A stretch of 64,000 nucleotides of DNA from Lineus longissimus. Taxonomy: Eukaryota > Nemertea > Pilidiophora > Heteronemertea > Lineidae. How positions within the stretch are numbered: the stretch's first letter is position 1; each line of letters begins with the position of its first letter. Positions 1 through 64,000 of this stretch are shown here, one piece after another. The notes under the pieces were generated by a model. The model saw only the letters and a list, made by a program, of their open reading frames with translations, did not search any database and had not been told where the DNA came from. The stretch covers positions 9,240,001 to 9,304,000 of the forward strand of contig NC_088321.1 of assembly GCF_910592395.1 (NCBI RefSeq), written 5' to 3'. Position numbers and translations under genes: made by a program.

Positions 1-594
1 TGGAAATAGAGCGTCTAAGGCTTTGAGATGCCTTCGCAGTTGATAAATGCTAGCGGTCTGGTTGATCTCCTAATGTCGCTATCGGTCACCTGTAGCTGAT
101 CCATTAACCCTCTCCATTTGAACCATTCGGTTGCGTTTAGTCCCAGTGATTCGAAAGGTATCACTGTTTTGTCTGGTCTTAGTAAATCTGAAATATACTT
201 TATCCCTACTTCCTTCCAATGTTTATGAAAAATCATTATTTGATTAATTTTGATTAATTTATTGTACCATAAATATGTTTTTCCCGAGCCACGTGCTTGC
301 AGGCGCCGCCTCTTTTGCCTCAGTGAGCCAATCATCTTATATTGTAGCATGTGATGTATGTTTTACCAGACTATTATGTGGAGTATTGTCCTTTGGATTG
401 AGGGTAAGGTTCACCTCAATGTAAAACAATGCAAGTTTGATAAAAGAAGCAATTACACTGTTAACCCGTTGACATGAAGGTACTGTAGTGACTCTAAAAG
501 GGGCAATCGACATGAAGGTACTGTAGTGACTCTTAAACGGGCAATAGGGATTACACTACATCTCTGAACGTTCGTGCACTTGAAATTTGGTTGA

Positions 595-3500
595 TGGAAA
601 TAGAGCGTCTAAGGCTTTGAGATGCCTTCGCAGTTGATAAATGCTAGCGGTCTGGTTGATCTCCTAATGTCGCTATCGGTCACCTGTAGCTGATCCATTA
701 ACCCTCTCCATTTGAACCATTCGGTTGCGTTTAGTCCCAGTGATTCGAAAGGTATCACTGTTTTGTCTGGTCTTAGTAAATCTGAAATATACTTTATCCC
801 TACTTCCTTCCAATGTTTATGAAAAATCATTCTTTGATTAATTTTGATTAATTTATTGTACCATAAATATGTTTTTCCCGAGCCACGTGCTTGCAGGCGC
901 CGCCTCTTTTGCCTCAGTGAGCCAATCATCTTATATTGTAGCATGTGATGTATGTTTTACCAGACTATTATGTGGAGTATTGTCCTTTGGATTGAGGGTA
1001 AGGTTCACCTCAATGTAAAACAATGCAAGTTTGATAAAAGAAGCAATTACACTGTTAACCCGTTGATATGAAGGTACTGTAGTGACTCTAAAAGGGGCAA
1101 TCGACATAAAGGTACTGTAGTGACTCTTAAACGGGCAATAGGGATTACACTACATCTCTGAACGTTCGTGCACTTGAAATTTGGTTGATGGAAATAGAGC
1201 GTCTAAGGCTTTGAGATGCCTTCGCAGTTGATAAATGCTAGCGGTCTGGTTGATCTCCCAATGTCGCTATCGGTCACCTGTAGCTGATCCATTAACCCTC
1301 TCCATTTGAACCATTCGGTTGCGTTTAGTCCCAGTGATTCGAAAGGTATCACTGTTTTGTCTGGTCTTAGTAAATCTGAAATATACTTTATCCCTACTTC
1401 CTTCCAATGTTTATGAAAAATCATTCTTTGATTAATTTTGATTAATTTATTGTACCATAAATATGTTTTTCCCGAGCCACGTGCTTGCAGGCGCCGCCTC
1501 TTTTGCCTCAGTGAGCCAATCATCTTATATTGTAGCATGTGATGTATGTTTTACCAGACTATTATGTGGAGTATTGTCCTTTGGATTGAGGGTAAGGTTC
1601 ACCTCAATGTAAAACAATGCAAGTTTGATAAAAGAAGCAATTACACTGTTAACCCGTTGACATGAAGGTACTGTAGTGACTCTAAAAGGGGCAATCGACA
1701 TGAAGGTACTGTAGTGACTCTTAAACGGGCAATAGGGATTACACTACATCTCTGAACGTTCGTGCACTTGAAATTTGGTTGATGGAAATAGAGCGTCTAA
1801 GGCTTTGAGATGCCTTCGCAGTTGATAAATGCTAGCGGTCTGGTTGATCTCCTAATGTCGCTATCGGTCACCTGTAGCTGATCCATTAACCCTCTCCATT
1901 TGAACCATTCGGTTGCGTTTAGTCCCAGTGATTCGAAAGGTATCACTGTTTTGTCTGGTCTTAGTAAATCTGAAATATACTTTATCCCTACTTCCTTCCA
2001 ATGTTTATGAAAAATCATTCTTTGATTAATTTTGATTAATTTATTGTACCATAAATATGTTTTTCCCGAGCCACGTGCTTGCAGGCGCCGCCTCTTTTGC
2101 CTCAGTGAGCCAATCATCTTATATTGTAGCATGTGATGTATGTTTTACCAGACTATTATGTGGAGTATTGTCCTTTGGATTGAGGGTAAGGTTCACCTCA
2201 ATGTAAAACAATGCAAGTTTGATAAAAGAAGCAATTACACTGTTAACCCGTTGATATGAAGGTACTGTAGTGACTCTAAAAGGGGCAATCGACATAAAGG
2301 TACTGTAGTGACTCTTAAACGGGCAATAGGGATTACACTACATCTCTGAACGTTCGTGCACTTGAAATTTGGTTGATGGAAATAGAGCGTCTAAGGCTTT
2401 GAGATGCCTTCGCAGTTGATAAATGCTAGCGGTCTGGTTGATCTCCCAATGTCGCTATCGGTCACCTGTAGCTGATCCATTAACCCTCTCCATTTGAACC
2501 ATTCGGTTGCGTTTAGTCCCAGTGATTCGAAAGGTATCACTGTTTTGTCTGGTCTTAGTAAATCTGAAATATACTTTATCCCTACTTCCTTCCAATGTTT
2601 ATGAAAAATCATTCTTTGATTAATTTTGATTAATTTATTGTACCATAAATATGTTTTTCCCGAGCCACGTGCTTGCAGGCGCCGCCTCTTTTGCCTCAGT
2701 GAGCCAATCATCTTATATTGTAGCATGTGATGTATGTTTTACCAGACTATTATGTGGAGTATTGTCCTTTGGATTGAGGGTAAGGTTCACCTCAATGTAA
2801 AACAATGCAAGTTTGATAAAAGAAGCAATTACACTGTTAACCCGTTGACATGAAGGTACTGTAGTGACTCTAAAAGGGGCAATCGACATGAAGGTACTGT
2901 AGTGACTCTTAAACGGGCAATAGGGATTACACTACATCTCTGAACGTTCGTGCACTTGAAATTTGGTTGATGGAAATAGAGCGTCTAAGGCTTTGAGATG
3001 CCTTCGCAGTTGATAAATGCTAGCGGTCTGGTTGATCTCCTAATGTCGCTATCGGTCACCTGTAGCTGATCCATTAACCCTCTCCATTTGAACCATTCGG
3101 TTGCGTTTAGTCCCAGTGATTCGAAAGGTATCACTGTTTTGTCTGGTCTTAGTAAATCTGAAATATACTTTATCCCTACTTCCTTCCAATGTTTATGAAA
3201 AATCATTCTTTGATTAATTTTGATTAATTTATTGTACCATAAATATGTTTTTCCCGAGCCACGTGCTTGCAGGCGCCGCCTCTTTTGCCTCAGTGAGCCA
3301 ATCATCTTATATTGTAGCATGTGATGTATGTTTTACCAGACTATTATGTGGAGTATTGTCCTTTGGATTGAGGGTAAGGTTCACCTCAATGTAAAACAAT
3401 GCAAGTTTGATAAAAGAAGCAATTACACTGTTAACCCGTTGATATGAAGGTACTGTAGTGACTCTAAAAGGGGCAATCGACATAAAGGTACTGTAGTGAC

Positions 3501-6500
3501 TCTTAAACGGGCAATAGGGATTACACTACATCTCTGAACGTTCGTGCACTTGAAATTTGGTTGATGGAAATAGAGCGTCTAAGGCTTTGAGATGCCTTCG
3601 CAGTTGATAAATGCTAGCGGTCTGGTTGATCTCCCAATGTCGCTATCGGTCACCTGTAGCTGATCCATTAACCCTCTCCATTTGAACCATTCGGTTGCGT
3701 TTAGTCCCAGTGATTCGAAAGGTATCACTGTTTTGTCTGGTCTTAGTAAATCTGAAATATACTTTATCCCTACTTCCTTCCAATGTTTATGAAAAATCAT
3801 TCTTTGATTAATTTTGATTAATTTATTGTACCATAAATATGTTTTTCCCGAGCCACGTGCTTGCAGGCGCCGCCTCTTTTGCCTCAGTGAGCCAATCATC
3901 TTATATTGTAGCATGTGATGTATGTTTTACCAGACTATTATGTGGAGTATTGTCCTTTGGATTGAGGGTAAGGTTCACCTCAATGTAAAACAATGCAAGT
4001 TTGATAAAAGAAGCAATTACACTGTTAACCCGTTGACATGAAGGTACTGTAGTGACTCTAAAAGGGGCAATCGACATGAAGGTACTGTAGTGACTCTTAA
4101 ACGGGCAATAGGGATTACACTACATCTCTGAACGTTCGTGCACTTGAAATTTGGTTGATGGAAATAGAGCGTCTAAGGCTTTGAGATGCCTTCGCAGTTG
4201 ATAAATGCTAGCGGTCTGGTTGATCTCCTAATGTCGCTATCGGTCACCTGTAGCTGATCCATTAACCCTCTCCATTTGAACCATTCGGTTGCGTTTAGTC
4301 CCAGTGATTCGAAAGGTATCACTGTTTTGTCTGGTCTTAGTAAATCTGAAATATACTTTATCCCTACTTCCTTCCAATGTTTATGAAAAATCATTCTTTG
4401 ATTAATTTTGATTAATTTATTGTACCATAAATATGTTTTTCCCGAGCCACGTGCTTGCAGGCGCCGCCTCTTTTGCCTCAGTGAGCCAATCATCTTATAT
4501 TGTAGCATGTGATGTATGTTTTACCAGACTATTATGTGGAGTATTGTCCTTTGGATTGAGGGTAAGGTTCACCTTAATGTAAAACAATGCAAGTTTGATA
4601 AAAGAAGCAATTACACTGTTAACCCGTTGATATGAAGGTACTGTAGTGACTCTAAAAGGGGCAATCGACATAAAGGTACTGTAGTGACTCTTAAACGGGC
4701 AATAGGGATTACACTACATCTCTGAACGTTCGTGCACTTGAAATTTGGTTGATGGAAATAGAGCGTCTAAGGCTTTGAGATGCCTTCGCAGTTGATAAAT
4801 GCTAGCGGTCTGGTTGATCTCCCAATGTCGCTATCGGTCACCTGTAGCTGATCCATTAACCCTCTCCATTTGAACCATTCGGTTGCGTTTAGTCCCAGTG
4901 ATTCGAAAGGTATCACTGTTTTGTCTGGTCTTAGTAAATCTGAAATATACTTTATCCCTACTTCCTTCCAATGTTTATGAAAAATCATTCTTTGATTAAT
5001 TTTGATTAATTTATTGTACCATAAATATGTTTTTCCCGAGCCACGTGCTTGCAGGCGCCGCCTCTTTTGCCTCAGTGAGCCAATCATCTTATATTGTAGC
5101 ATGTGATGTATGTTTTACCAGACTATTATGTGGAGTATTGTCCTTTGGATTGAGGGTAAGGTTCACCTCAATGTAAAACAATGCAAGTTTGATAAAAGAA
5201 GCAATTACACTGTTAACCCGTTGACATGAAGGTACTGTAGTGACTCTAAAAGGGGCAATCGACATGAAGGTACTGTAGTGACTCTTAAACGGGCAATAGG
5301 GATTACACTACATCTCTGAACGTTCGTGCACTTGAAATTTGGTTGATGGAAATAGAGCGTCTAAGGCTTTGAGATGCCTTCGCAGTTGATAAATGCTAGC
5401 GGTCTGGTTGATCTCCTAATGTCGCTATCGGTCACCTGTAGCTGATCCATTAACCCTCTCCATTTGAACCATTCGGTTGCGTTTAGTCCCAGTGATTCGA
5501 AAGGTATCACTGTTTTGTCTGGTCTTAGTAAATCTGAAATATACTTTATCCCTACTTCCTTCCAATGTTTATGAAAAATCATTCTTTGATTAATTTTGAT
5601 TAATTTATTGTACCATAAATATGTTTTTCCCGAGCCACGTGCTTGCAGGCGCCGCCTCTTTTGCCTCAGTGAGCCAATCATCTTATATTGTAGCATGTGA
5701 TGTATGTTTTACCAGACTATTATGTGGAGTATTGTCCTTTGGATTGAGGGTAAGGTTCACCTCAATGTAAAACAATGCAAGTTTGATAAAAGAAGCAATT
5801 ACACTGTTAACCCGTTGATATGAAGGTACTGTAGTGACTCTAAAAGGGGCAATCGACATAAAGGTACTGTAGTGACTCTTAAACGGGCAATAGGGATTAC
5901 ACTACATCTCTGAACGTTCGTGCACTTGAAATTTGGTTGATGGAAATAGAGCGTCTAAGGCTTTGAGATGCCTTCGCAGTTGATAAATGCTAGCGGTCTG
6001 GTTGATCTCCCAATGTCGCTATCGGTCACCTGTAGCTGATCCATTAACCCTCTCCATTTGAACCATTCGGTTGGGTTTGTCCCAGTGATTCGAAAGGTAT
6101 CACTGTTTTGTCTGGTCTTAGTAAATCTGAAATATACTTTATCCCTACTTCCTTCCAATGTTTAAGAAAAATCATTATTTGATTAATTTTGATTAATTTA
6201 TTGTACCATAAATATGTTTTTCCCGAGCCACGTGCTTGCAGGCGCCGCCTCTTTTGCCTCAGTGAGCCAATCATCTTATATTGTAGCATGTGATGTATGT
6301 TTTACCAGACTATTATGTGGAGTATTGTCCTTTGGATTGAGGGTAAGGTTCACCTCAATGTAAAACAATGCAAGTTTGATAAAAGAAGCAATTACACTGT
6401 TAACCCGTTGACATGAAGGTACTGTAGTGACTCTAAAAGGGGCAATCGACATGAAGGTACTGTAGTGACTCTTAAACGGGCAATAGGGATTACACTACAT

Positions 6501-6533
6501 CTCTGAACGTTCGTGCACTTGAAATTTGGTTGA
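595..6533 (-). repeat. Dimeric higher-order repeat (1,188 bp) in A1
   Basis: From the second to the eleventh monomer two subtypes alternate strictly. One reads CTCCTAATG (Arg in the minus-strand frame) and ends with GTTGATATGAAGG plus GACATAAAGG. The other reads CTCCCAATG (Gly) and ends with GTTGACATGAAGG plus GACATGAAGG. The repeating unit is therefore a dimer of 2 x 594 bp, about five copies. Monomers 1 and 12 break the alternation, as expected at the edge of a homogenised block. Confidence 0.9.
609..944 (-). pseudogene. LINE ORF2 C-terminal remnant in A monomer (representative)
   Basis: A 111-codon open frame recurs in almost every A1 monomer and many A2 monomers; this copy stands for them. 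Its central part, with the motifs KTYLWYNKLIKIN, HKHWKEVGIKYISDLL and VIPFESLGL, resembles the segment following the reverse-transcriptase domain of L1/Tx1-like non-LTR retrotransposon ORF2 proteins (pattern: LW-N-kI-i, W-xx-GI-xx-i-DLL, then an f-s-f-e-e-l-like stretch). No RT catalytic motif, endonuclease or zinc knuckle is present. I infer that a 5'-truncated LINE fragment was incorporated into the ancestral monomer and then amplified. Frame retention over many copies probably reflects recent homogenisation, since several copies carry indels or premature stops. The LINE assignment is by motif recall; no search was run. Confidence 0.7.
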
Positions 6534-7349
6534 TGGAAATAGAGCGTCTAAGGCTTTGAGATGCCTTCGCAGTTGATAAATGCTAGCGGTCTGGTTGATC
6601 TCCCAATGTCGCTATCGGTCACCTGTAGCTGATCCATTAACCCTCTCCATTTGAACCATTCGAATGGGTTTGTCCCAGTGATTCGAAAGGTATCACTGTT
6701 TTGTCTGGTCTTAGTAAATCTGAAATATACTTTATCCCTACTTCCTTCCAATGTTTAAGAAAAATCATTATTTGATTAATTTTGATTAATTTATTGTACC
6801 ATAAATATGTTTTTCCCGAGCCACGTGCTTGCAGGCGCCGCCTCTTTTGCCTCAGTGAGCCAATCATCTTATATTGTAGCATGTGATGTATGTTTTACCA
6901 GACTATTATGTGGAGTATTGTCCTTTGGATTGAGGGTAAGGTTCACCTCAATGTAAAACAATGCAAGTTTGATAAAAGAAGCAATTACACTGTTAACCCG
7001 TTGACATGAAGGTACTGTAGTGACTCTAAAAGGGGCAATCGACATGAAGGTACTGTAGTGACTCTTAAACGGGCAATAGGGATTACACTACATCTCTGAA
7101 CGTTCGTGCACTTGAAATTTGGTTGATGGAAATAGAGCGTCTAAGGCTTTGAGATGCCTTCGCAGTTAATAAATGCTAGCGGTCTGGTTGATCTCCTAAT
7201 GTCGCTATCGGTCACCTGTAGCTGATCCATTAACCCTCTCCATTTGAACCATTCGGTTGCGTTTAGTCCCAGTGATTCGAAAGGTATCACTGTTTTGTCT
7301 GGTCTTAGTAAATCTGAAATATACTTTATCCCTACTTCCTTCCAATGTT

Positions 7350-7366
7350 TAAGAAAATCAGCCTCA
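7350..7366. other. A1/B1 inversion junction
   Basis: The A monomer (minus orientation) is cut in the block AATGTTTAAGAAAA and continues directly into B sequence TCAGCCTCAAGTGACTG, where the satellite family runs in the opposite direction. The A side normally continues AAATCATT and the B side is normally preceded by GGTATAAATCAG, so AAATCA-like microhomology spans the join. The same join occurs at about 53570. Confidence 0.9.
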
Positions 7367-7384
7367 AGTGACTGATGCCTACCT

Positions 7385-7463
7385 GTAACCAGCTACAGGT
7401 GACCGATAGCGACATTAGGAGATGTAACCAGCTACAGGTGACCAATAGCGACATTAGAAGATC
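7385..7463 (+). repeat. 39-bp minisatellite in B monomer, two-copy form
   Basis: GTAACCAGCTACAGGTGACC followed by (A/G)ATAGCGACATTAG(G/A)AGAT is repeated in tandem with a 39-bp period. Two copies occur here and in many monomers; three copies occur in others (for example near 8960-9080, 12135-12260, 55214-55335). Each unit contains CCTGTA...TACAGG, a small potential hairpin with a 6-nt loop. Because 39 is a multiple of 3, copy gain keeps an accidental minus-strand frame open, giving 75- and 88-codon versions. Confidence 0.9.
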
Positions 7464-53578: not shown

Positions 53579-56235
53579 AGTGACTGATGCCTACCTGTTA
53601 CCAGCTACAGGTGACCGATAGTGACATTATGAGATGTAACCAGCTACAGGTGACCAATAGCGACATTAGGAGATGTAACCAGCTACAGGTGACCGATAGC
53701 GACATTAGAAGATCAACCAGATCGCTTGGATTTATAAACTGCGAAGGCATCTTAAAGCCTTAGACGCTATATTTCCATCAACCAAATTTCAGGATGCGCA
53801 GCGTTATGTATGTCCAGGTTATGTCCTAAATTTAGTATTTCTGGTTTTAACTAAAAAAGTCTGGACTTATTGCCCCTTTAAGAGTCACTACAGTACCTTC
53901 ATGTCAACGGGTTAACAGTGAAATTGCTTCTTTTATCAAACTTGCATTGTTTACATCCGTCTTATTCAAGTGAACCGTACCGCAATACAAAGGACAATAC
54001 TCCACATAATAGTCTGGTAAAACATATATCACATGCTACAATATAAGATGCTATATATGATTGGCTCACTAAGGCAAAGGAGGCGGCACCTGCAAGCACA
54101 TTGCTCGGGAAAAACATATTTATGGTACAAATAAATTAATCAAAATCAATCAAAGAATGATCTTTCATAAACATTGGAAAGGGATAAATTATATTTCAGA
54201 TTTACAAAGACCAGACAAAACAGTGATACCTTTTGAATCACTGGGACTAAAAGCAACCGAATGGTTCAAATGGAGAGGGTTAATGGATGTTATTATAAAT
54301 AAAGATTTAGGCTTAGACTTTTACAGTTTCTGCGTAGATCTTACATTATTGTAATCAGTGTTAAAAGTCTTAGAGACAATCATGCCCAACGGTATAAATC
54401 AGCCTCAAGTGACTGATGCCTACCTGTAACCAGCTACAGGTGACCGATAGCGACATTAGGAGATGTAACCAGCTACAGGTGACCAATAGCGACATTAGAA
54501 GATCAACCAGATCGCTTGGATTTATCAACTGCGAAGGCATCTTAAAGCCTTAGACGCTATATTTCCATCAACCAAATTTCAGGATGCGCAGCGTTATGTG
54601 TGTCCAGGTTATGTCCTAAATTTAGTATTTCTGGTTTAAACTAAAATTATGGACTTATTGCCCCTTTAAGAGTCATTACAGTACCTTCATGTCAACGGGT
54701 TAACAGTGAAATTGCTTCTTTTATCAAACTTACATTGTTTACATCCGTCTTATTCAAGTGAACCGTACCCCAATACAAAGGACAATACTCCACATAATAG
54801 TCAGGTAAAACATATATCACATGCTACAATATAAGATGTTATATATGATTGGCTCACTAAGGCAAAGGAGGCGGCGCCTGCAAGCACGTGGCTCGGGAAA
54901 AACATATTTATGGTACAAATAAATTAATCAAAATCAATCAAAGAATGATCTTTCATAAACAATGGAAGGGGATAAATTATATTTCAGATTTACAAAGACC
55001 AGACAAAACAGTGATACCTTTTGAATCACTGGGACTAAAAGCAACCGAATGGTTCAAATGGAGAGGTTAATGGATGTTATTATAAATAGAGATTTAGGCT
55101 TATAATTTTAACACTGATAATAATAATATAAGATCTACGCAGAAACTGTAAAAGTCTAAGAGACAATCATGCCCAACGGTATAAATCAGCCTCAAGTGAC
55201 TGATGCCTACCTGTAACCAGCTACAGGTGACCGATAGCGACATTAGGAGATGTAACCAGCTACAGGTGACCAATAGCGACATTAGGAGATGTAACCAGCT
55301 ACAGGTGACCAATAGCGACATTAGAAGATCAACCAGATCGCTTGGATTTATAAACTGCGAAGGCATCTTAAAGCCTTAGACGCTATATTTCCATCAACCA
55401 AATTTCAGGATGCGCAGCGTTATGTATGTCCAGGTTATGTCCTAAATTTAGTATTTCTGGTTTAAACTAAAAAAGTATGGACTTATTGCCCCTTTAAGAG
55501 TCACTACAGTACCTTCATGTCAACGGGTTAACAGTGAAATTGCTTCTTTTATCAAACTTGCATTGTTTACATCCGTCTTATTCAAGTGAACAGTACCCCA
55601 ATACAAAGGACAATACTCCACATAATAGTCTGGTAAAACATATATCACATGCTACAATATAAGATGTCATATATGATTGGCTCACTAAGGCAAAGGAGGC
55701 GGCGCCTGCAAGCACGCGGCTCGGGAAAAACATATTTATGGTACAAATAAATTAATCAAAATCAATCAAAGAATGATCTTTCATAAACATTGGAAAGGGA
55801 TAAATTATATTTCAGATTTACAAAGACCAGACAAAACAGTGATACCTTTTGAATCACTGGGACTAAAAGCAACCGAATGGTTCAAATGGAGAGGTTAATG
55901 GATGTTATTATAAATAAAGATTTAGGCTTATAATTTTAACACTGATAATAATAATATAAGATCTACGCAGAAACTGTAAAAGTCTCAGAGACAATCACGC
56001 CCAACGGTATAAATCAGCCTCAAGTGACTGATGCCTACCTGTAACCAGCTACAGGTGACCGATAGCGACATTATGAGATGTAACCAGCTACAGGTGACCA
56101 ATAGCGACATTAGAAGATCAACCAGATCGCTTGGATTTATCAACTGCGAAGGCATCTTAAAGCCTTAGACGCTATATTTCCATCAACCAAATTTCAGGAT
56201 GTGCAGCGTTATGTATGTCCAGGTTATGTCCTAAA
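53570..56235 (+). repeat. Satellite array B2, left part
   Basis: About three and a half B monomers (anchors near 53571, 54408, 55191 and 56020). The first has the CACATTGCTCGGG variant, the second the GTGTGTCCAGG / AAATTATGG variant. The last is interrupted at CCTAAA by the transposon and resumes at 62873 with TTTAGTATTTCTGG. No gene is seen. Confidence 0.95.
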
Positions 56236-56256
56236 GGGCCTGTTCACTTTCGTTTT
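56236..56256 (+). repeat. Left terminal inverted repeat
   Basis: A 21-bp terminus reading GGGCCTGTTCACTTTCG and then TTTT. It pairs with 62852-62872 with a single mismatch at position 5 (C here, A in the other end read inward). The host AAA immediately outside mirrors the TTT at the other end, so the apparent inverted repeat extends into the target as CTAAAGGGC. Confidence 0.92.
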
Positions 56257-56810
56257 AAGACGTTAAGAAATAGGGTCGTTATGATCACCCTGAATGTTAT
56301 GTCATTACTAGGCCTATAAGGTGATTACATGACCATCTTAGTGAAGTTCGAGTCAGACTGCCCCATTTCCTCTCTGGGGGTGAAAGGTGTTGTTACCCTT
56401 TATAAATTGGTTATGCATTGTTGATTGAGATTACTTGTGGTTGCGTAATGTGCCTTTAGGCCTACTCTCTGGAGAATGTAACACTTTTCCGGATCATAGG
56501 GTCTTTTGGAAGGGAGGATTTTATCAATAATAGGTGCTGAGCTATTCAAAGACAGCACCTGCTTTGTATTCTGTCATTCAGACAATAGAGCTGTGCATGA
56601 ATGAGAACAATCTATTCAACAGATGAGTTTCTGCAGGGACCCTGTCCATGAAAATATTGTCTAATGTCTAGTGTTTGAATAGGGTCAAGGAAACCATAAG
56701 ATGTTACATCATCATTCCTAATAGTTCCTTTTGTCAAGATTCCAGCATGCTTTCTACCATCAGAACACATTAGACGTTTGTGCATTGAATGAAGACTGCC
56801 AGCTTTAGAC
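56257..56810 (+). other. Transposon 5' noncoding region
   Basis: No convincing coding sequence. A 66-codon minus-strand frame (56612-56812) covers part of it but resembles nothing I recognise. Transcription probably starts here, because the first credible exon opens at 56811. Confidence 0.5.
56401..56406 (+). promoter_or_regulatory. Possible TATA box
   Basis: TATAAA lies about 405 bp upstream of the proposed first ATG. There is no initiator or transcript evidence, and a TATAAA hexamer can occur by chance in AT-rich DNA. Confidence 0.2.
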
Positions 56811-56921
56811 ATGGTGCTCCATGTATGTGAAGGTTGTGGGGCATTGATACATGAGAGTGGACAGCGAATTTCGAATCTACAAAGACATCTTCGGCATTAC
56901 TGCATAAATAGAGATTTGTTT
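56811..56921 (+). CDS. Exon 1: C2HC zinc-finger-like motif
   Basis: Thirty-seven codons opening with ATG at 56811, the first ATG after an in-frame stop at 56790-56792. The peptide contains CEGCGALIHESG and LQRHLRHYC, giving C-x2-C-x16-H-x4-C (Cys6, Cys9, His26, Cys31), the spacing of a small DNA-binding zinc finger. It ends TTT|GTAAGT, a strong 5' splice site in phase 0. Joining to the acceptor at 57567 keeps the frame of the transposase exon. Related Harbinger-type elements supply DNA binding in a separate Myb-like protein, so an attached finger would be a different arrangement. No transcript evidence is available. Confidence 0.6.
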
Positions 56922-59900
56922 GTAAGTATTATCCTCCGAACTATGTGAACCAATGCATTTCGAACATCGTCGATTTCCCGATTTGAGCAGCTTTGCCATC
57001 CTGTTGGTGAGGGTTTTGTATAGACCTCTTGCCTTTGTCCGATAAAGGGGCTGATGGAGGGGGGGGGGGGGCTAATTCTAATGTCGTTTATACATTGTGA
57101 ATCCCTATATCTTAAAATCTACTGGACCGATTTTCACCAAACTTTTTCTGCTTGTAGACATGATAAACATTCTACAGAGATTTGTAAAAAAATGGTATGT
57201 TGCTGATCTAGACTTTCAGTAAAATGTTTGGCGAAAATCGGCCAAGTTGATTTTGAGATACAGGGATTCACAATTCATGAAGCCATTAGAATTTACCCCC
57301 GGCCAATCGGCCCCTGAGTCAGACTAAGGCAAGAGGTCTATTCATTGAAGAGGGTGTGTACATACGACCCAGGCCAACAGGTGGCCATTGTCAAATTCGG
57401 GAAAGCCACCATGTTTGAAAATCCTCTGGAGTACTGTAAACCTCTTAAATGTTTTTCTCGTTAAACGCAAAAATACAAGTAAAAGGCACGAAATTGTGCA
57501 AAGTGTCATGTGCAAAGTGTCATGTATAACTCACTAGTAACTGCAACAATTCCTTGTTCTATTACAGGCTCAATATCACCAAGGTAATCCAGACGTCCAA
57601 GGCAATGGGACAATTGATGGTCAACATGATGACGCTGATACTGCCACCCATGATGAACCAATCGGCACCGCCAGCCATGATGAACCAATGGACACCGCCA
57701 GCCATGATGAACCAATGGACACCGCCTCTTCTGATGATGAACCGGAGACTGCTGCTAACAACGACGTAGACTCTGAAACTGCCAGTCCCAACGATAGGCC
57801 TGGCCAAACCTCCAGCCGCAGTGAAAACAACACTGATGGAACATATGTTTATGGGGTATCAGACAGTTGCTATGATGCTGAGTTTCCAAGACATGAATGG
57901 CCTGAGAACCGACGACGGGACTGGAATCACATGCGAAAGCCATGGATGATGCCAGATTGGAAGCTAGAGAATTTCACAGGCATGAAAAAGGAACAGTTCT
58001 GGCTGCTTGTGTGGGAGCATCAGCAGGGGAGGACCCAGAAGTCAACCTGCCGTAGTTTGGATCCTTCTGCTAGAGTATTGTTGTATCGGCACAAAATGCG
58101 GAGTAACGTAGAGTTTCGTGATTTGGCTGCGTACTTTGATATAGGTCTGCCAACTGCCAATGACATTTTCTGGACTGAGTTGTGTGCTGACATTCTCAAT
58201 AGCTCAAGCCTTCCATTGCAGTGGTTTGGTAACCTAAGTGACTCTGAGAAAAATGATGTTTACTCCAATATGAAAGGTCGAGAATCCCCCATCCATAGTG
58301 AGTTGCTGTCCTACTTTTCTGATCCAAAAGATGGTTCTTCAAGGATGCCTGTTGCTGCAAGCATGGATTCTAAAAAAGTGAAGGTGCAGAACTCAATGGA
58401 TTATGAGCAACAGAAGGATTGTTATTATTCCAAAAAGGGAGGGCATTTCATAACCTTTTCTACTTTGGTGGATACTACAGGACATGTGGTTTTGACACTT
58501 CCTGTGGCTGCAGCAGCCACCCCAAGGTGTGGTGATAGCAATCTGTGTGGTGTTGAGTTGCAATTATGCGAAAGTCAGGCTGACAGTGAGGTCGCACCTC
58601 AGGGACTTCTGTCTCTCCTTCAAGGAACCTCGGACTACTTCGTGATACTCGCTGTGGACAAGGGGTACATCTATGTGCCACATAATGTAAGCCAACAAAA
58701 TGTGACAAATCTGAAGCAGTGGTGTTCTGAGAATGGTTGCAGGCTAATATGGCCTAGTGAGGGGGATGAGGATATTCTCCAAGTTGATCCAACAAGTGGT
58801 AAAATTGAGATGACGGCATCTCCTAGCGACCCTGTTCTCACAAAAAACAGCAAAATCATAGTTGGAAAGCTCAGATTCGGAGTAGAACAATTTCATGGAG
58901 CTATTGCTGATGAAAAAATCCTGGACATAATACCTTATCAGTTCCTCCAACCACTTGGAGAACAATTTTGCAACAAATATGGTATACCTAATGATTATGT
59001 GAATTGTCCTCGTATCTACCTTATATGGCTAGCTGCAGTGTCACATTTCAATCAGTTCCATGCAAAATTCAACATAAAGTTCGTGGATGATCAGGAGCAG
59101 GTTCGCCTGGCGAAGCTGATTAAGCACCGACTCAACATCAGTAACTTCCTGCATGACCCCTCAGTCACTCTTCCTCCTCATGTGCTGCAGTTCCCTTCTG
59201 CCAGGAGTATTCAGTGGAACAGTGTTGAAGTCGGAGACATTGGTCAACTCAGAGACCGCCTTGACTTGCCGGCTCTTAGTGCACAGCAGATATACGAATT
59301 CACTCTTGGACCGTACTTGGTTCGTAGGGGTTGTTCTTACATTACCCATTGTAAGCAACTCGAAATCGGTGCTCAAATGGGCCAATTCGAAAGTATTGCT
59401 GAATACTGGGACATGGCACGTGAACTTCCAGTTACCACCCGTGTTTACTTCACAAATGTCGATGAGATTCCGGATGGCTGGAACAATGAAACTTACTTCC
59501 AGTGGCCCGAGACAGGAGTGACCATCATAACGATGAAAATGCCATCGGCAAACAGGACGAACAGAAACCCGGGGAACATGAAACGGCCTCTAGTAGTGTT
59601 CACACAGAGTGGTTCACCGAGGAACAGCGAGTTGGAGAACTATCTAGGATTTACTGGGCCGCTACAGAGACTTTGTGGTTGGACTTGTGGGACAGCTGCC
59701 AAGAGGGACCTTGGCTCCCGTATGCTCACGTCAGATGCCCATGTAGCCGCACTTCTGATGATACTGTGTGCTGAGGAGAGGTTTCGGGATCCTGTAGTAA
59801 GAAAATGTCATCTAGCCGACCCAAAGCTGCCAGAACCCCTTCAGCCTCGCTACACTGCGCCAAGGGGTCGCACACCAGTTTTCCGTAGGACACAAAGACA

Positions 59901-60829
59901 ACGCCCACCACAACAGAGCACAAGTCCCCAACAATCTGAGATCCCTGACACCCATGAGTCTGAAGTGACCAACATTGCTGATGTGGACAGGAATGATGAG
60001 CCCATGCCGCCCCAATATCCAGGATCACGACTGATCAATGACGCAAACATTTGCTACAGCAATGCTGTGCTCCAGTGTTTAAATCATGTGAATCTTGGCC
60101 AGCACATACAAGGTGATCAACCAAATCTTGTGGACAACACCTTTCTTGATATTTGTGCCAGGATGGCTGGACAGGGTGCACCTTTCTCTGTCCAGGAACT
60201 CATTACCACTCTGAATACCACAATTAATGGGAGAGGGTATGTGCTAGGAGTATACCAGGATGCAGGAGAATTTCTAATGAGCTTGTTGGAAAAACTCAGT
60301 ATACCTGAAGGAGTTCTCACTTCGTGGCCAGGGCAATTCCACTGCCCCCTTGGGGCACATTGACTTACAGTTGGTGAGGGATGGCACCGTGTTAAGGATT
60401 AACGTTCCACGTGGCCCCCAAGCAGTGTCACTTATCGATCTTTACCATGATCACTTTGCAAATTCAGGTATTCTCCAGGGTCACTGTCAATTCCAAGGAC
60501 GAAATGGGAGAGTCTGTGAACGCCACTCGCAGGGGTTTCAGATCACTGTAGATGGACCTATAACTATAATCGAGGTCAACAGACGATCAGGCAATCAAAA
60601 GTGCATGACCAAGATTAGACCTCCAGAGGGAGGTACCCTAGATGGCAAGATAATTCAAGGCATCATGTGCCATTCTGGGGACCAGTGCAATGTGGGCCAC
60701 TGGTTCGCCTATCTAAGAGACCCCAACAACATCTGGTGGAGGATGGATGATGATAGGCAACCAGTGGCTGCATCACTTTGGGACCAACAAGGGAACAACT
60801 TTACCCTGAATGTTTTCTTTTTGGCCTAG
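56811..60829 (+). CDS. Zinc finger-DDE transposase-USP fusion gene (2 exons, frameshifted)
   Basis: Proposed gene model: exon 1 at 56811-56921, intron 56922-57567, exon 2 from 57568 to the stop at 60827-60829, with a 1-nt frame change near 60345-60360; about 1,120 residues. Domains in order: C2HC zinc-finger-like motif (residues 6-31), acidic HDEPMDTAS repeats, helix-turn-helix, DDE catalytic core, a region of unknown function, a basic Pro/Arg-rich linker, and a USP-type cysteine-peptidase domain. The transposase would bind the TIRs and catalyse excision and integration at AAATTT. The USP domain might remove ubiquitin from the transposase or host factors, which is inference. No other gene of comparable size is visible in the element. 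The frame change means this copy is inactive in the USP part, carries a sequence error, or uses programmed frameshifting. Confidence 0.7.
57021..57340. mobile_element. Fold-back MITE-like element nested in the intron
   Basis: About 320 bp whose two halves are inverted repeats of each other. The left end TAGACCTCTTGCCTTTGTC matches the reverse complement of the right end GACTAAGGCAAGAGGTCTA almost exactly. Pairing continues inward through AATTCTAATG, ATTGTGAATCCCTATATCTT and CCGATTTTCACCAAA, with scattered mismatches, into a short centre near 57150-57220. No coding capacity. I could not define a target duplication with confidence (TA or longer). Its position suggests a small non-autonomous transposon that jumped into the larger one. 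Confidence 0.75.
57059..57071 (+). repeat. G13 homopolymer
   Basis: Thirteen consecutive G inside the left arm of the fold-back element. A second 13-G run lies at 61699-61711. Such runs are error-prone in sequencing, so the length is uncertain. Confidence 0.9.
57568..60363 (+). CDS. Exon 2: DDE transposase and N-terminal half of USP domain
   Basis: Open from the acceptor at 57567 to TGA at 60361-60363. The first in-exon ATG that gives a long frame is at 57688 (891 codons; numbering below starts there). Residues ~92-170 are helical and hold an HTH of IS5/Harbinger type (RSNVEFRDLAAYFDIGLPTA). The catalytic triad fits Asp227 (ASMDSKKVKV), Asp324 (LAVDKGYIYVP) and Glu400 (LRFGVEQFHG), spaced 97 and 76 residues. 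Residues ~484-700 contain LSAQQIYEFTLGPYLVRRG, perhaps related to accessory regions of ISL2EU-like proteins (weak). Residues ~712-775 are basic and Pro/Gln-rich. The USP Cys box is at 780-800 (NDANICYSNAVLQCL, Cys789), followed by QDAGEFLMSLL. The final three residues come from the shifted frame. Confidence 0.85.
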   Translation, partial: AQYHQGNPDVQGNGTIDGQHDDADTATHDEPIGTASHDEPMDTASHDEPMDTASSDDEPETAANNDVDSETASPNDRPGQTSSRSENNTDGTYVYGVSDSCYDAEFPRHEWPENRRRDWNHMRKPWMMPDWKLENFTGMKKEQFWLLVWEHQQGRTQKSTCRSLDPSARVLLYRHKMRSNVEFRDLAAYFDIGLPTANDIFWTELCADILNSSSLPLQWFGNLSDSEKNDVYSNMKGRESPIHSELLSYFSDPKDGSSRMPVAASMDSKKVKVQNSMDYEQQKDCYYSKKGGHFITFSTLVDTTGHVVLTLPVAAAATPRCGDSNLCGVELQLCESQADSEVAPQGLLSLLQGTSDYFVILAVDKGYIYVPHNVSQQNVTNLKQWCSENGCRLIWPSEGDEDILQVDPTSGKIEMTASPSDPVLTKNSKIIVGKLRFGVEQFHGAIADEKILDIIPYQFLQPLGEQFCNKYGIPNDYVNCPRIYLIWLAAVSHFNQFHAKFNIKFVDDQEQVRLAKLIKHRLNISNFLHDPSVTLPPHVLQFPSARSIQWNSVEVGDIGQLRDRLDLPALSAQQIYEFTLGPYLVRRGCSYITHCKQLEIGAQMGQFESIAEYWDMARELPVTTRVYFTNVDEIPDGWNNETYFQWPETGVTIITMKMPSANRTNRNPGNMKRPLVVFTQSGSPRNSELENYLGFTGPLQRLCGWTCGTAAKRDLGSRMLTSDAHVAALLMILCAEERFRDPVVRKCHLADPKLPEPLQPRYTAPRGRTPVFRRTQRQRPPQQSTSPQQSEIPDTHESEVTNIADVDRNDEPMPPQYPGSRLINDANICYSNAVLQCLNHVNLGQHIQGDQPNLVDNTFLDICARMAGQGAPFSVQELITTLNTTINGRGYVLGVYQDAGEFLMSLLEKLSIPEGVLTSWPGQFHCPLGAH
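57649..57741 (+). repeat. 27-bp coding tandem repeat (HDEPMDTAS)
   Basis: About three and a half copies of CATGATGAACCAATGGACAC plus CGCCAGC, spaced 27 bp (57649, 57676, 57703). Each encodes the acidic nonapeptide HDEPMDTAS (the first copy has IG for MD). The repeat lies in the presumed flexible linker between zinc finger and HTH, and its length may vary between copies of the element. Confidence 0.85.
60341..60363 (+). other. Frame change inside the USP domain
   Basis: Frame 1 ends CAC TGC CCC CTT GGG GCA CAT TGA. The downstream USP residues are in frame 2, reading TTG GGG CAC ATT GAC. The two frames overlap in the run GCCCCCTTGGGG, and both read Pro-Leu-Gly there. Removing one C or one G from these homopolymers would restore one continuous reading frame, so a 1-bp insertion (mutation or sequencing error) is the simplest cause. 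Programmed +1 shifting or a tiny intron are alternatives; no good splice pair is visible. Confidence 0.75.
60350..60829 (+). CDS. C-terminal half of USP-type peptidase domain
   Basis: About 159 codons in frame 2, ending at TAG 60827-60829; there is no ATG at its start, so it is a continuation and not an independent gene. It contains the USP His box GHWFAYLRDPNNIWWRMDDD, with the presumed catalytic His at 60698-60700 and the Asp cluster at 60746-60754. This matches the USP pattern G-H-(Y/W)-xx-Y-xR-...-W-xx-x-D-D. ITIIEVNRRSG upstream corresponds to the strand that usually reads l-x-i-x-L-x-R-F. The zinc-binding CxxC fingers found in many USPs are not evident, so the domain is compact. Together with the Cys box of the preceding frame it holds the expected Cys, His and Asp. 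Confidence 0.8.
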   Translation: MGHIDLQLVRDGTVLRINVPRGPQAVSLIDLYHDHFANSGILQGHCQFQGRNGRVCERHSQGFQITVDGPITIIEVNRRSGNQKCMTKIRPPEGGTLDGKIIQGIMCHSGDQCNVGHWFAYLRDPNNIWWRMDDDRQPVAASLWDQQGNNFTLNVFFLA

Positions 60830-61070
60830 ACTATGTTCATAAAAGCAGTTTGACTAGATTCATATGATTCATATGATTCTGACGTTCAATTTTTGGCCTA
60901 GACTGTGTTCATAGCATACTTTAGCTGGATTCAAGTCCTGGATTATTTGTTGTTCCATTGGATACTGAGGTGATTTGACGTTTGGCCTAGACTGTGTTCA
61001 TAACGTACTTTGCTGGATTCAAGTCCTGGATTATCTTTTGTTCCTTTGGATTACTGGTGATTCTGACTGT
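60821..61070 (+). repeat. Three direct repeats at the 3' end of the gene
   Basis: TTGGCCTAGACTGTGTTCAT recurs at 60821 (as ACTATG), 60893 and 60982. The second and third copies continue with ACTTT-GCTGGATTCAAGTCC and TGGATTAT, then a GGAT-ACTG-GTGATT block. The first copy includes the last two codons and the TAG stop, so the repeat seems to have grown from the gene terminus by local duplication. Spacing is 72 and 89 bp. Confidence 0.85.
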
Positions 61071-61235
61071 GGATAAACTGATGGGGATGTGACTGATGAT
61101 TCCATTTATGGGCAGTTGATTGCAGATAGGTAGGACAACCTATACCATAAGTTTTATTCTCTAATAACCAGTGTCGTTTTTCAATTTCAGATGCGTTGCA
61201 GGCTTCACAGTAGTATATCAATAGCATGGCCAGAC

Positions 61236-61241
61236 AATAAA
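61236..61241 (+). terminator. Possible polyadenylation signal
   Basis: AATAAA about 407 bp beyond the TAG stop, on the coding strand. It is the first canonical hexamer I noticed after the gene. No cleavage-site evidence. Confidence 0.35.
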
Positions 61242-61698
61242 TTCCTCGGGCAATTAGAAGAATAACAATGTTCAGATGACAATTGCTAAAATAGTTTGGG
61301 TTTAATTTTGAAAGAATAATGTGTTAAATTAGATATGGGGTTATTTGTCACAAATAACACTTCCAGTGTATGTCTCAGAGGTAATCATCATTTCATTTGC
61401 CACACTTGACATCAGTGCCACCATTGGAGAAAAGATAAACAACTGGTCATAATCTGCCACCTCGCCCCAGGCAAAAATGATTGATCGCACATGCGCACTT
61501 GGGATGTTTTCCTGGTTTGCAAATTCTGTCCGATTGTTTCTCTTTACTCCTATGGTGGCGCTGATGATGATTTTGGCAACCTCATGTAATCAAATCCATT
61601 TGTTGTTGAACTAAAAATGTATGCCTTGCACGGTTCAACACAAGTTCTGTTCATAGAAGAAAAAACAAACTACAATAATAAGCTATATCACACTGATC

Positions 61699-61711
61699 GG
61701 GGGGGGGGGGG
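61699..61711 (+). repeat. Second G13 homopolymer
   Basis: Thirteen G within the 3' noncoding region, following CACTGATC. No function inferred; its length may be inaccurate. Confidence 0.9.
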
Positions 61712-62851
61712 AACATCAAACCAGAAGGCCAAATGCTTGCTCTTTCCCTTATCATCTAAAGCATTCATTGCCATACAAAGTCCTCTTATTGGTGTGTCTG
61801 TCCCCTAAGTCCACTGGGTAGTTTTCACTGCATGCAGTTCATTGTGGTGGGTGCTTCACAATTGAGGGATTTCAAGCATGCCTAGTATAGATGTGTTGAC
61901 AGTAGGCTTATGAACACCAAACTATACTTTTCTCACAAATGAAATGGTACTGGTATCCGCTTTCATATTTGCCATTGGTTTCATTTGTTAGAAACACCCT
62001 GAAGAAAAAAAAGGCAACAGGAAGACTGGTCATATCCAGGGGAAAACCCAACTCTTATCTGTAGCAAATGCGATGAAATGGTTCATTTTATTATCATTTC
62101 TTTTCTTTCTGATGTCCATTTGGATTTGATCACTTTTATAGACATCATTCATTCTCATTATGCCCTCTTGATGAAGAACAAGTCATTTTTATGAAAGAGT
62201 AGGGCCATATTGAGATTCAATACATTTATTACGACATTTTTAGGAGCTAAAAGTAAAGAAAACTATTAGAAAGTTCATCAGCAGTAGGCCCAGGTAACTC
62301 AAACAATTGGCTTTTTGTGTCCTTCAATAGGAAAATGATGGCAGCTCAGCACATCTGCCATTCTATAGGCCTATGAACCCTAGGCCTTCATTGTTCACTG
62401 TGGCCATTGTTGTCCAGCACGCAGTGCACACCCCCACAGTTGAATGGTTCAATCTGCTGTGTTACAAACAGATTCATGTAATACCCAACTCGAAGTAATG
62501 AATGGCTATTTTTAAAATGGCTTGAGGAATTAATAGTTCATCTGAGGTCAACTCTCCCTTAAACGATGAATTTCAAAGTCATTTTTTGGGGTGTTTCTGA
62601 TAATTATGAATCAAATTATTGGATTATTTGGAGCTCTCATGACCGGCACAACCCATTTCTGAAGTAATATTTAGAAAATCATGGCATTTTCACAAGGCCT
62701 AATCAGTTCAATTGTTCTTTTGTCTTAGTTAATGACAAGTAAACGAATTGTCATTTCACCCAATATTAATCATTTTAATCATTGTATCATCCCTGCAATT
62801 TTCAAATTCCTCGCTTTTTCCGTTTTCCCAAGGATCACAAAACTTGGTCAC

Positions 62852-62872
62852 AAAACGAAAGTGAACATGCCC
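62852..62872 (-). repeat. Right terminal inverted repeat
   Basis: AAAACGAAAGTGAACATGCC followed by C, the inverted match of 56236-56256 with one mismatch. It is followed directly by host TTTAGTATTTCTGG, the right half of the satellite target. Confidence 0.92.
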
Positions 62873-64000
62873 TTTAGTATTTCTGGTTTAAACTAAAAGT
62901 ATGGACTTATTGCCCCTTTAAGAGTCACTACAGTACCTTCATGTCAACGGGTTAACAGTGAAATTGCTTCTTTTATCAAACTTGCATTGTTTACATCCGT
63001 CTTATTCAAGTGAACCGTACCCCAATACAAAGGACAATACTCCACATAATAGTCTGGTAAAACATATATCACATGCTACAATATAAGATGTTATATATGA
63101 TTGGCTCACTAAGGCAAAGGAGGCGGCGCCTGCAAGCACGTGGCACGGGAAAAACATATTTATGGTACAAATAAATTAATCAAAATCAATCAAAGAATGA
63201 TCTTTCATAAACATTGGAAGGGGATAAATTATATTTCAGATTTACAAAGACCAGACAAAACAGTGATACCTTTCGAATCACTGGGACTAAAAGCAACCGA
63301 ATGGTTCAAATGGAGAGGGTTAATGGATGTTATTATAAATAAAGATTTAGGCTTATAATTTTACCACTGATAAAAATAATGTAAGATCTACGAAGAAACT
63401 GTAAAAGTCTAAGAGACAATCATGCCCAACGGTATAAATCAGCCTCAAGTGACTGATGCCTACCTGTAACCAGCTACAGGTGACCGATAGCGACATTAGG
63501 AGATGTAACCAGCTACAGGTGACCAATAGCGACATTAGAAGATCAACCAGATCGCTTGGATTTATCAACTGCGAAGGCATCTTAGAGCCTTAGACGCTAT
63601 ATTTCCATCAACCAAATTTCAGGATGCGCAGCGTTATGTATGTCCAGGTTATGTCCTAAATTTAGTATTTCTGGTTTAAACTAAAAGTATGGACTTATTG
63701 CCCCTTTAAGAGTCACTACAGTACCTTCATGTCAACGGGTTAACAGTGAAATTGCTTCTTTTATCAAACTTGCATTGTTTACATCCGTCTTATTCAAGTG
63801 AACCGTACCCCAATACAAAGGACAATACTCCACATAATAGTCTGGTAAAACATATATCACATGCTACAATATAAGATGTTATATATGATTGGCTCACTAA
63901 GGCAAAGGAGGCGGCGCCTGCAAGCACGTGGCACGGGAAAAACATATTTATGGTACAAATAAATTAATCAAAATAAATCAAAGAATGATCTTTCATAAAC
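62873..64000 (+). repeat. Satellite array B2, right part
   Basis: The monomer interrupted at 56235 resumes with TTTAGTATTTCTGG and is of the GTGGCACGGG subtype with a flipped 54-bp segment (63358-63411) and a two-copy minisatellite. A second monomer begins near 63450 and runs off the end of the window within the LINE remnant. The array continues beyond the window. Confidence 0.95.

Follow-up and report, generated by a model that had tools for sequence, protein, structure and literature searches.

A transposase fused to a ubiquitin-specific protease domain in a probable Spy-type transposon of the nemertean Lineus longissimus

Several groups of transposons have been described as carrying peptidases that act on ubiquitin or on ubiquitin-like proteins. 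Ginger elements encode OTU or ULP1 domains and Mutator elements encode ULP1 (PMC2836005), and Helitrons encode OTU and VTD deubiquitinases (PMC9741609). Members of the VTD family that were assayed cleave ubiquitin chains, and transposon OTU domains had no prior testing according to the same paper (PMC9741609). The association of a transposase with a peptidase of family C19, to which ubiquitin-specific proteases (USPs) belong, was noted in 2010, in one sentence, for a Trichomonas vaginalis protein, XP_001314237.1, which combines transposase_11 and peptidase C19 (PMC2836005).

Spy elements are recognized by their insertion within AAATTT without duplication of the target (PMC4482050, PMC11304231). 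Intact elements published so far measure 1,165-5,910 bp and contain a single ORF, which encodes about 700 aa in the five elements tested; they come from Arthropoda, Cnidaria and Mollusca, and Nemertea is not one of these three phyla in the 2024 survey (PMC11304231). In the literature covered here (titles, abstracts and passages, with few subscription papers and no supplements), no USP was found in a Spy-type or Harbinger-type element.

The DNA analysed here, hereafter the window, is a stretch of 64,000 nucleotides from Lineus longissimus, a nemertean whose assembly tnLinLong1.1 comprises 391 Mb in 19 chromosomes (PMC8593623). It contains a copy of a transposon whose transposase is fused to a USP. 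On balance, this transposon is best explained as a young member of the Spy group that carries a USP captured once, maintained by selection and perhaps acting in cis.

Ends, target and gene of the element

The features of the window copy and of its surroundings are as follows.

53824..56235, no strand: satellite array left of the element, units of about 790/828 bp
56233..56235, no strand: left target half AAA (host satellite); AAA is left of 10/10 family-A copies
56236..62872, + strand: whole DNA transposon, very probably of Spy type, 6,637 bp; inverted ends, flanks equal to the empty satellite site, ends common to 9 other copies
56236..56261, no strand: left terminal inverted repeat, 26 nt
56811..56921, + strand: predicted exon 1, 37 aa, C2HC/BED-like zinc finger
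56922..57567, + strand: intron predicted from the sequence, GTAAGT ... TTACAG, phase 0; the family B counterpart has the same phase
57568..60829, + strand: predicted exon 2 (linker, HTH, DDE, linker, USP), with a frame change near its end in the window copy
58054..58170, + strand: HTH_Tnp_4-like region, aa 172-210, E 0.0084, below cut-off
58366..58887, + strand: DDE core, D276 (58366-58368), D373 (58657-58659), E449 (58885-58887); DDE_Tnp_4 match weak
60016..60348, + strand: USP N-terminal half, oxyanion Asn833, Cys838 (60052-60054), QDAGEF
60356..60826, + strand: USP C-terminal half in the shifted frame, His box (His 60698-60700), Asp 60746-60748
62847..62872, no strand: right terminal inverted repeat, 26 nt
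62873..62875, no strand: right target half TTT (host satellite), without duplication; TTT is right of 9/10 family-A copies
62873..64000, no strand: satellite array right of the element, units of about 790/828 bp as on the left

Inverted-repeat arms were detected at 56231-56261 and 62847-62877 (31 nt, 90%). Since their five outer bases correspond to the host target, the element itself extends from 56236 to 62872. The insertion point is located inside a single satellite unit, in which the empty site reads TCCTAAATTTAGTATTTCTGG, a sequence found in 33 exact occurrences within the window (7573-30034 and 53824-63654). The left and right flanks of the window copy, once joined, are identical to this empty site letter for letter. 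The window copy is inserted between AAA and TTT, and target duplication is absent.

This comparison with an empty site was made for the window copy, the remaining copies of the same family (family A) being judged by their flanks alone. When the window copy and nine others were read at both ends, AAA was found on the left of all ten and TTT on the right of nine, the remaining copy displaying AAG; beyond these bases, the flanks differ among copies and no repeated target is found there. In a related family (family B), AAA flanks the left end of two copies out of three (TAT in the third), TTT flanks the only right end read, and the inverted ends reach about 160 nt at 93% in copy L011. These counts cover families A and B. 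The sequence-only reading had proposed an IS5/Harbinger/Spy-type affinity; insertion between AAA and TTT without duplication supports the Spy affinity (PHIS superfamily), and the element very probably belongs to the Spy group. In Lineus longissimus, its length ranges from 6.6 to 8.1 kb, the intact A copies carrying about 1.2 kb of additional sequence upstream of exon 2 compared with the window copy.

Other features of the surroundings deserve a mention. The intron region at 57017-57345 holds nested inverted repeats. A second tandem array, made of units of about 594 bp, occupies positions 1-7426 and about 30506-53436 of the window; it is inverted relative to the 790/828-bp satellite, with which it has in common a 427-nt stretch at about 89%. 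Six other element-end sequences (on C12, C14, C15 and C27) appear joined to the insertion site of the satellite, the matches (92-94%) spanning the satellite flank and the terminal 16 bases of the end, and a seventh (98%) spans only the last 5 bases of the end. The satellite thus seems to gather Spy-type insertions at a single position.

An open frame of 940 codons from stop to stop runs on the + strand from 57541 to 60363, and a second frame of 182 codons (60281-60829) carries the His-box end of the USP. Both points had been anticipated from the letters of the window: the fusion of HTH and DDE core with the USP lies in one frame, in which the Pfam UCH profile matches the Cys-box end, and the His box follows after a frame change, in a frame where the same profile matches the His-box end. 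The catalytic triad first given as Asp227, Asp324 and Glu400 is present too, and corresponds to D276, D373 and E449 when residues are numbered from stop to stop; counting from residue 50, the first in-frame Met, accounts for the offset of 49. The start originally assigned to the feature, 57568, coincides with the predicted start of exon 2. A consensus splice acceptor immediately precedes this position, so that the true beginning of the gene is probably upstream of it, at 56811.

The putative exon 1 displays a CxxC...H...C pattern and a GTAAGT donor, and its finger matches Pfam zf-BED weakly (E 0.028, below cut-off). A counterpart, MVLHLCE.CG, is found at the start of a longer first exon in family B and also in P0005, one of the relatives described below. 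This exon of family B is followed by a predicted intron, in the same phase as in family A, and family B also has a second C2H2-like finger; its fingers match Pfam weakly. In family C, a FLYWCH zinc-finger exon lies upstream of the transposase frame (L063 702-869, Pfam E 1.9e-10), to which it may be spliced. The DNA-binding N terminus may be exchangeable between families, with FLYWCH in C versus C2H2/BED-like fingers in A and B. No further frame of at least 150 codons was found in the window. Globally, it is almost certain from these predictions that the only recognized gene of the element encodes a four-part protein made of a zinc finger (on a predicted exon), an HTH, a DDE core and a C-terminal USP.

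Identity and conservation of the two catalytic domains

The two pieces of the USP in the window copy match Pfam UCH (PF00443) with E 8.5e-5 and 22.7 bits for the Cys-box end and E 2.9e-4 and 21 bits for the His-box end, both marginally below the curated cut-off of 23.9 bits. In an intact relative, both halves lie in a single frame and the score reaches 40.4 bits. Among six proteins submitted to this test, five (P0001, P0002, P0003, P0004 and P0006) exceed the cut-off and the sixth, P0005, stops before the USP; in P0003, positions 2-234 of the 254 of the profile are matched in a single stretch. Furthermore, when a profile of all six proteins was compared with PDB, 67 sequences reached E<=1; the 60 that were listed comprise 59 ubiquitin carboxyl-terminal hydrolases and one BpJOS. 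NCBIfam gave no match for the three proteins compared with it. The UCH and PDB profile matches place the domain in C19, as the sequence-only reading had suggested.

The USP alignment of five families contains 59 invariant columns, including Asn833, Cys838, Asp907 (in QDAGEF) and His1053. Cys935, His939, Cys982 and Cys992 are likewise invariant and could constitute a zinc site in the USP fingers. The third residue of the triad is Asp in three of the five families and Asn in the two others; active USPs use either residue. The oxyanion Asn, the catalytic Cys, the His and the Asp/Asn occur in the expected order in the five families and in eight intact A copies. Among 30 loci fetched, at least one USP motif pattern is missing from each of the decayed L026, L027 and L029, the USP match of L027 beginning downstream of the Cys box. 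An AlphaFold model of P0006 obtained from a four-row alignment has a mean pLDDT of 30.5, too low to bear on the USP fold.

For the transposase, D276, D373 and E449 are invariant in the six aligned proteins. HTH_Tnp_4 and DDE_Tnp_4 are each matched at E<=1 in four of the six, every match being below cut-off. We infer that both the DDE core and the USP would be catalytically active.

Copies, families and history of the fusion

A search of the genome yielded at least 64 matches, which were grouped by hand into about 40 transposase places. Each of eight other contigs carries a copy with a single open frame of 1,095 codons encoding the transposase and the whole USP, the pairwise differences amounting to 0-4 per 3,285 coding nt. 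These eight copies are devoid of internal stops and of the frame change of the window copy, and all eight retain N833, C838, H1053, D1069, D276, D373 and E449. A tenth family-A copy (L010/L030) is broken elsewhere than the window copy. The near identity of the intact copies, combined with their different flanks, indicates that family A moved recently; it is a young, recently moving element.

The same layout is found in family B (L011-L013, 61% to family A), family C (L017-L022 and others, about 51%) and family D (L016, 44%), and several decayed families also have a transposase followed by a USP. The 30 best-scoring loci, which represent 29 copies, all have a USP match, and among the matches listed a USP match is found at 38 of the about 40 transposase places. 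Of the remaining two, C14:9114784-9116968 has kept only a small piece from the end of the USP, and C4:15525883-15526887 is a short decayed transposase fragment devoid of USP. Two other places (C4:17228433-17229056 and C7:14720578-14723396) show transposon-type USP matches interrupted by stops, with no transposase match listed nearby.

Outside this genome, a search of 5.8 billion proteins, in which one protein-database pass scored the 7,998 candidates with most words in common, found two relatives, of which P0006 (955 aa) has the complete transposase-USP fusion. The other, P0005 (822 aa), shares 71% identity with family A across 65% of the query and stops short of the USP region; its gene model could be truncated or the USP truly absent. 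The USP part of P0006, used as a query, retrieved no additional protein from the protein database, and 74 pattern matches in viral contigs gave no confirmed relative. The fusion, which the sequence-only reading had advised seeking in intact copies and other species, is therefore present in eight intact copies, in other families and in P0006. Intact relatives devoid of USP, revealing a local capture or an assembly join, and a domain that fails to match C19 had been named beforehand as what would speak against it. Neither check overturned the fusion; of the two relatives from outside this genome, P0005 ends before the USP.

The DDE and USP trees of five proteins have the same topology, ((A,B),((C,P6),D)), with support of 100% (DDE) and 99% (USP) for the main split and of only 41% and 43% for the inner node, and the pairwise identities of the two domains are correlated (0.92, 10 pairs). 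As dS was saturated in 17 of 18 comparisons, dN/dS was set aside and identities by codon position were used instead. For the USP in the six pairs of families A-D, they amount to 0.53-0.67 at position 1, 0.63-0.73 at position 2 and 0.29-0.40 at position 3, which is near saturation. Of the two domains, the USP has the higher rate of evolution (54% identity between A and B, versus 66% for the DDE core). The matching histories of the two domains and the codon-position pattern point to a single capture before the five families split, followed by selection. The sequences thus support the view that an ancestor acquired the USP once and that selection has retained it in the five families under comparison. 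The host genome contains 94 UCH matches, transposon ones included, and none of the 48 matches of the transposon USP falls at a recognizable host USP gene. As no host gene is found among these matches despite the many host USPs, the capture looks old.

An unrelated locus, C3:11239300-11244300 (L067 1-2501, L068 1562-2353), encodes a USP followed by ULP1 in one frame, which matches UCH (E 3.1e-25) and Peptidase_C48 (E 1.8e-11). The frames upstream display transposase-like motifs, YFDATGS and NAPVEAWFKTIK, and neither of the two frames has a Pfam match. Frames of equal length with similar UCH scores occur at C3:11412375 and C3:11417675, which suggests that the locus is repeated and may represent a further transposon, equipped with two proteases of ubiquitin type.

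Possible roles of the USP and comparison with known elements

In the mechanism proposed, the zinc finger and the HTH would bind the element ends, and the DDE core would excise the element and join it between AAA and TTT, as expected from the chemistry of the family. The USP would act in cis by removing ubiquitin from the transposase and from nearby DNA-bound proteins, which would preserve the protein-DNA complex until transposition is completed. That the USP protects the transposase in cis from ubiquitin-dependent removal is put forward tentatively. Two observations make it the preferred role: transposase and USP form one protein in each of the eight intact A copies and in the open B and C frames, and proteases of the ubiquitin system are found repeatedly in transposons of other kinds (PMC2836005, PMC9741609).

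The frame shift of the window copy could have betrayed a chance frame, an assembly join or a local capture of a host gene, a reading whose probability is now virtually nil as the eight intact copies, the other families and the protein found outside this genome rule it out. It is very unlikely that the USP is a catalytically dead module with a ubiquitin-binding or structural role: the Asn found as third triad residue in two of the five families and the faster divergence of the USP compared with the DDE core would fit such a module, but either Asp or Asn serves in active USPs, and Asn833, Cys838 and His1053 are invariant in the five families and unchanged in the eight intact A copies.

Two other explanations assume an active protease with different substrates. 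The USP might have its substrates among the proteins of host chromatin or DNA repair (ubiquitinated histones, PCNA or repair factors) where the element is excised or inserted, and thereby aid integration or repair of the donor gap, in line with the repair activation suggested for transposon OTU and ULP1 (PMC2836005). The satellite location of the element, together with the other element ends that seem joined to the same satellite site, would suit this role, but the many AAATTT sites of the satellite (the 33 exact empty sites of the window) explain such insertions, and this explanation is regarded as less probable than not by a wide measure. It is improbable that the USP counters a germline host defence in trans, for example the ubiquitin-dependent removal of transposon proteins; a comparable idea was raised for the VTD deubiquitinases of transposons (PMC9741609), but a protease joined to the transposase would more readily act in cis.

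A broader interpretation would make the element a member of an old Spy-type lineage of spiralian animals, whose built-in cis deubiquitinase edits both the transposase and the chromatin where it lands, letting the element persist and move in satellite heterochromatin. The capture of ubiquitin proteases would then be a recurrent route of counter-defence, the separate USP-ULP1 locus of the same genome pointing to recurrent capture. This interpretation is speculative and rather unlikely as a whole. Whatever the role, the element makes testable the question of why transposons repeatedly acquire ubiquitin or SUMO proteases, as it offers young intact copies, one recognized gene, a clean AAA/TTT target and a Cys that can be removed without affecting the DDE core. 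Spy transposases described as having no more than a DNA-binding part and a DDE core are already active in human cells (PMC11304231), which would allow a direct measurement of what the USP adds.

The pairing of a transposase with C19 as such has a precedent. The earlier impression that a USP fused to this kind of transposase was new stands for Spy-type and Harbinger-type elements in the literature covered, where none was found. The nearest precedent, Trichomonas XP_001314237.1, also associates a DDE transposase with C19; compared by its description only, it differs by its protist host and its Transposase_11 model (PMC2836005). As far as the literature was searched, the novelty lies in the presence of a USP in elements of Spy type that inhabit an animal and include both young intact copies and several old families. 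Ginger1 likewise carries a cysteine protease of the ubiquitin/SUMO system C-terminal to a DDE transposase, but its transposase is of integrase type and its protease is OTU or Ulp1 instead of C19 (PMC2836005). Mutator elements also bear a peptidase of a ubiquitin-like system, but of ULP1 type (C48) and in another transposase superfamily (PMC2836005), and Helitrons also encode deubiquitinase domains, but are rolling-circle elements with other protease classes (PMC9741609).

The closest resemblance is with the published Spy elements, which have in common with this one the insertion between AAA and TTT without duplication, the inverted ends, a single transposase gene encoding a DNA-binding part (predicted here) and a DDE core, and young copies of low divergence in some species. 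Unlike them, the element described here measures 6.6-8.1 kb, has a main exon of 1,095 codons encoding a C-terminal USP and a predicted N-terminal zinc finger, and resides in Nemertea. It would thus extend Spy-type elements to a further phylum, with a protein architecture larger than that described for Spy in the 2024 survey (PMC11304231).
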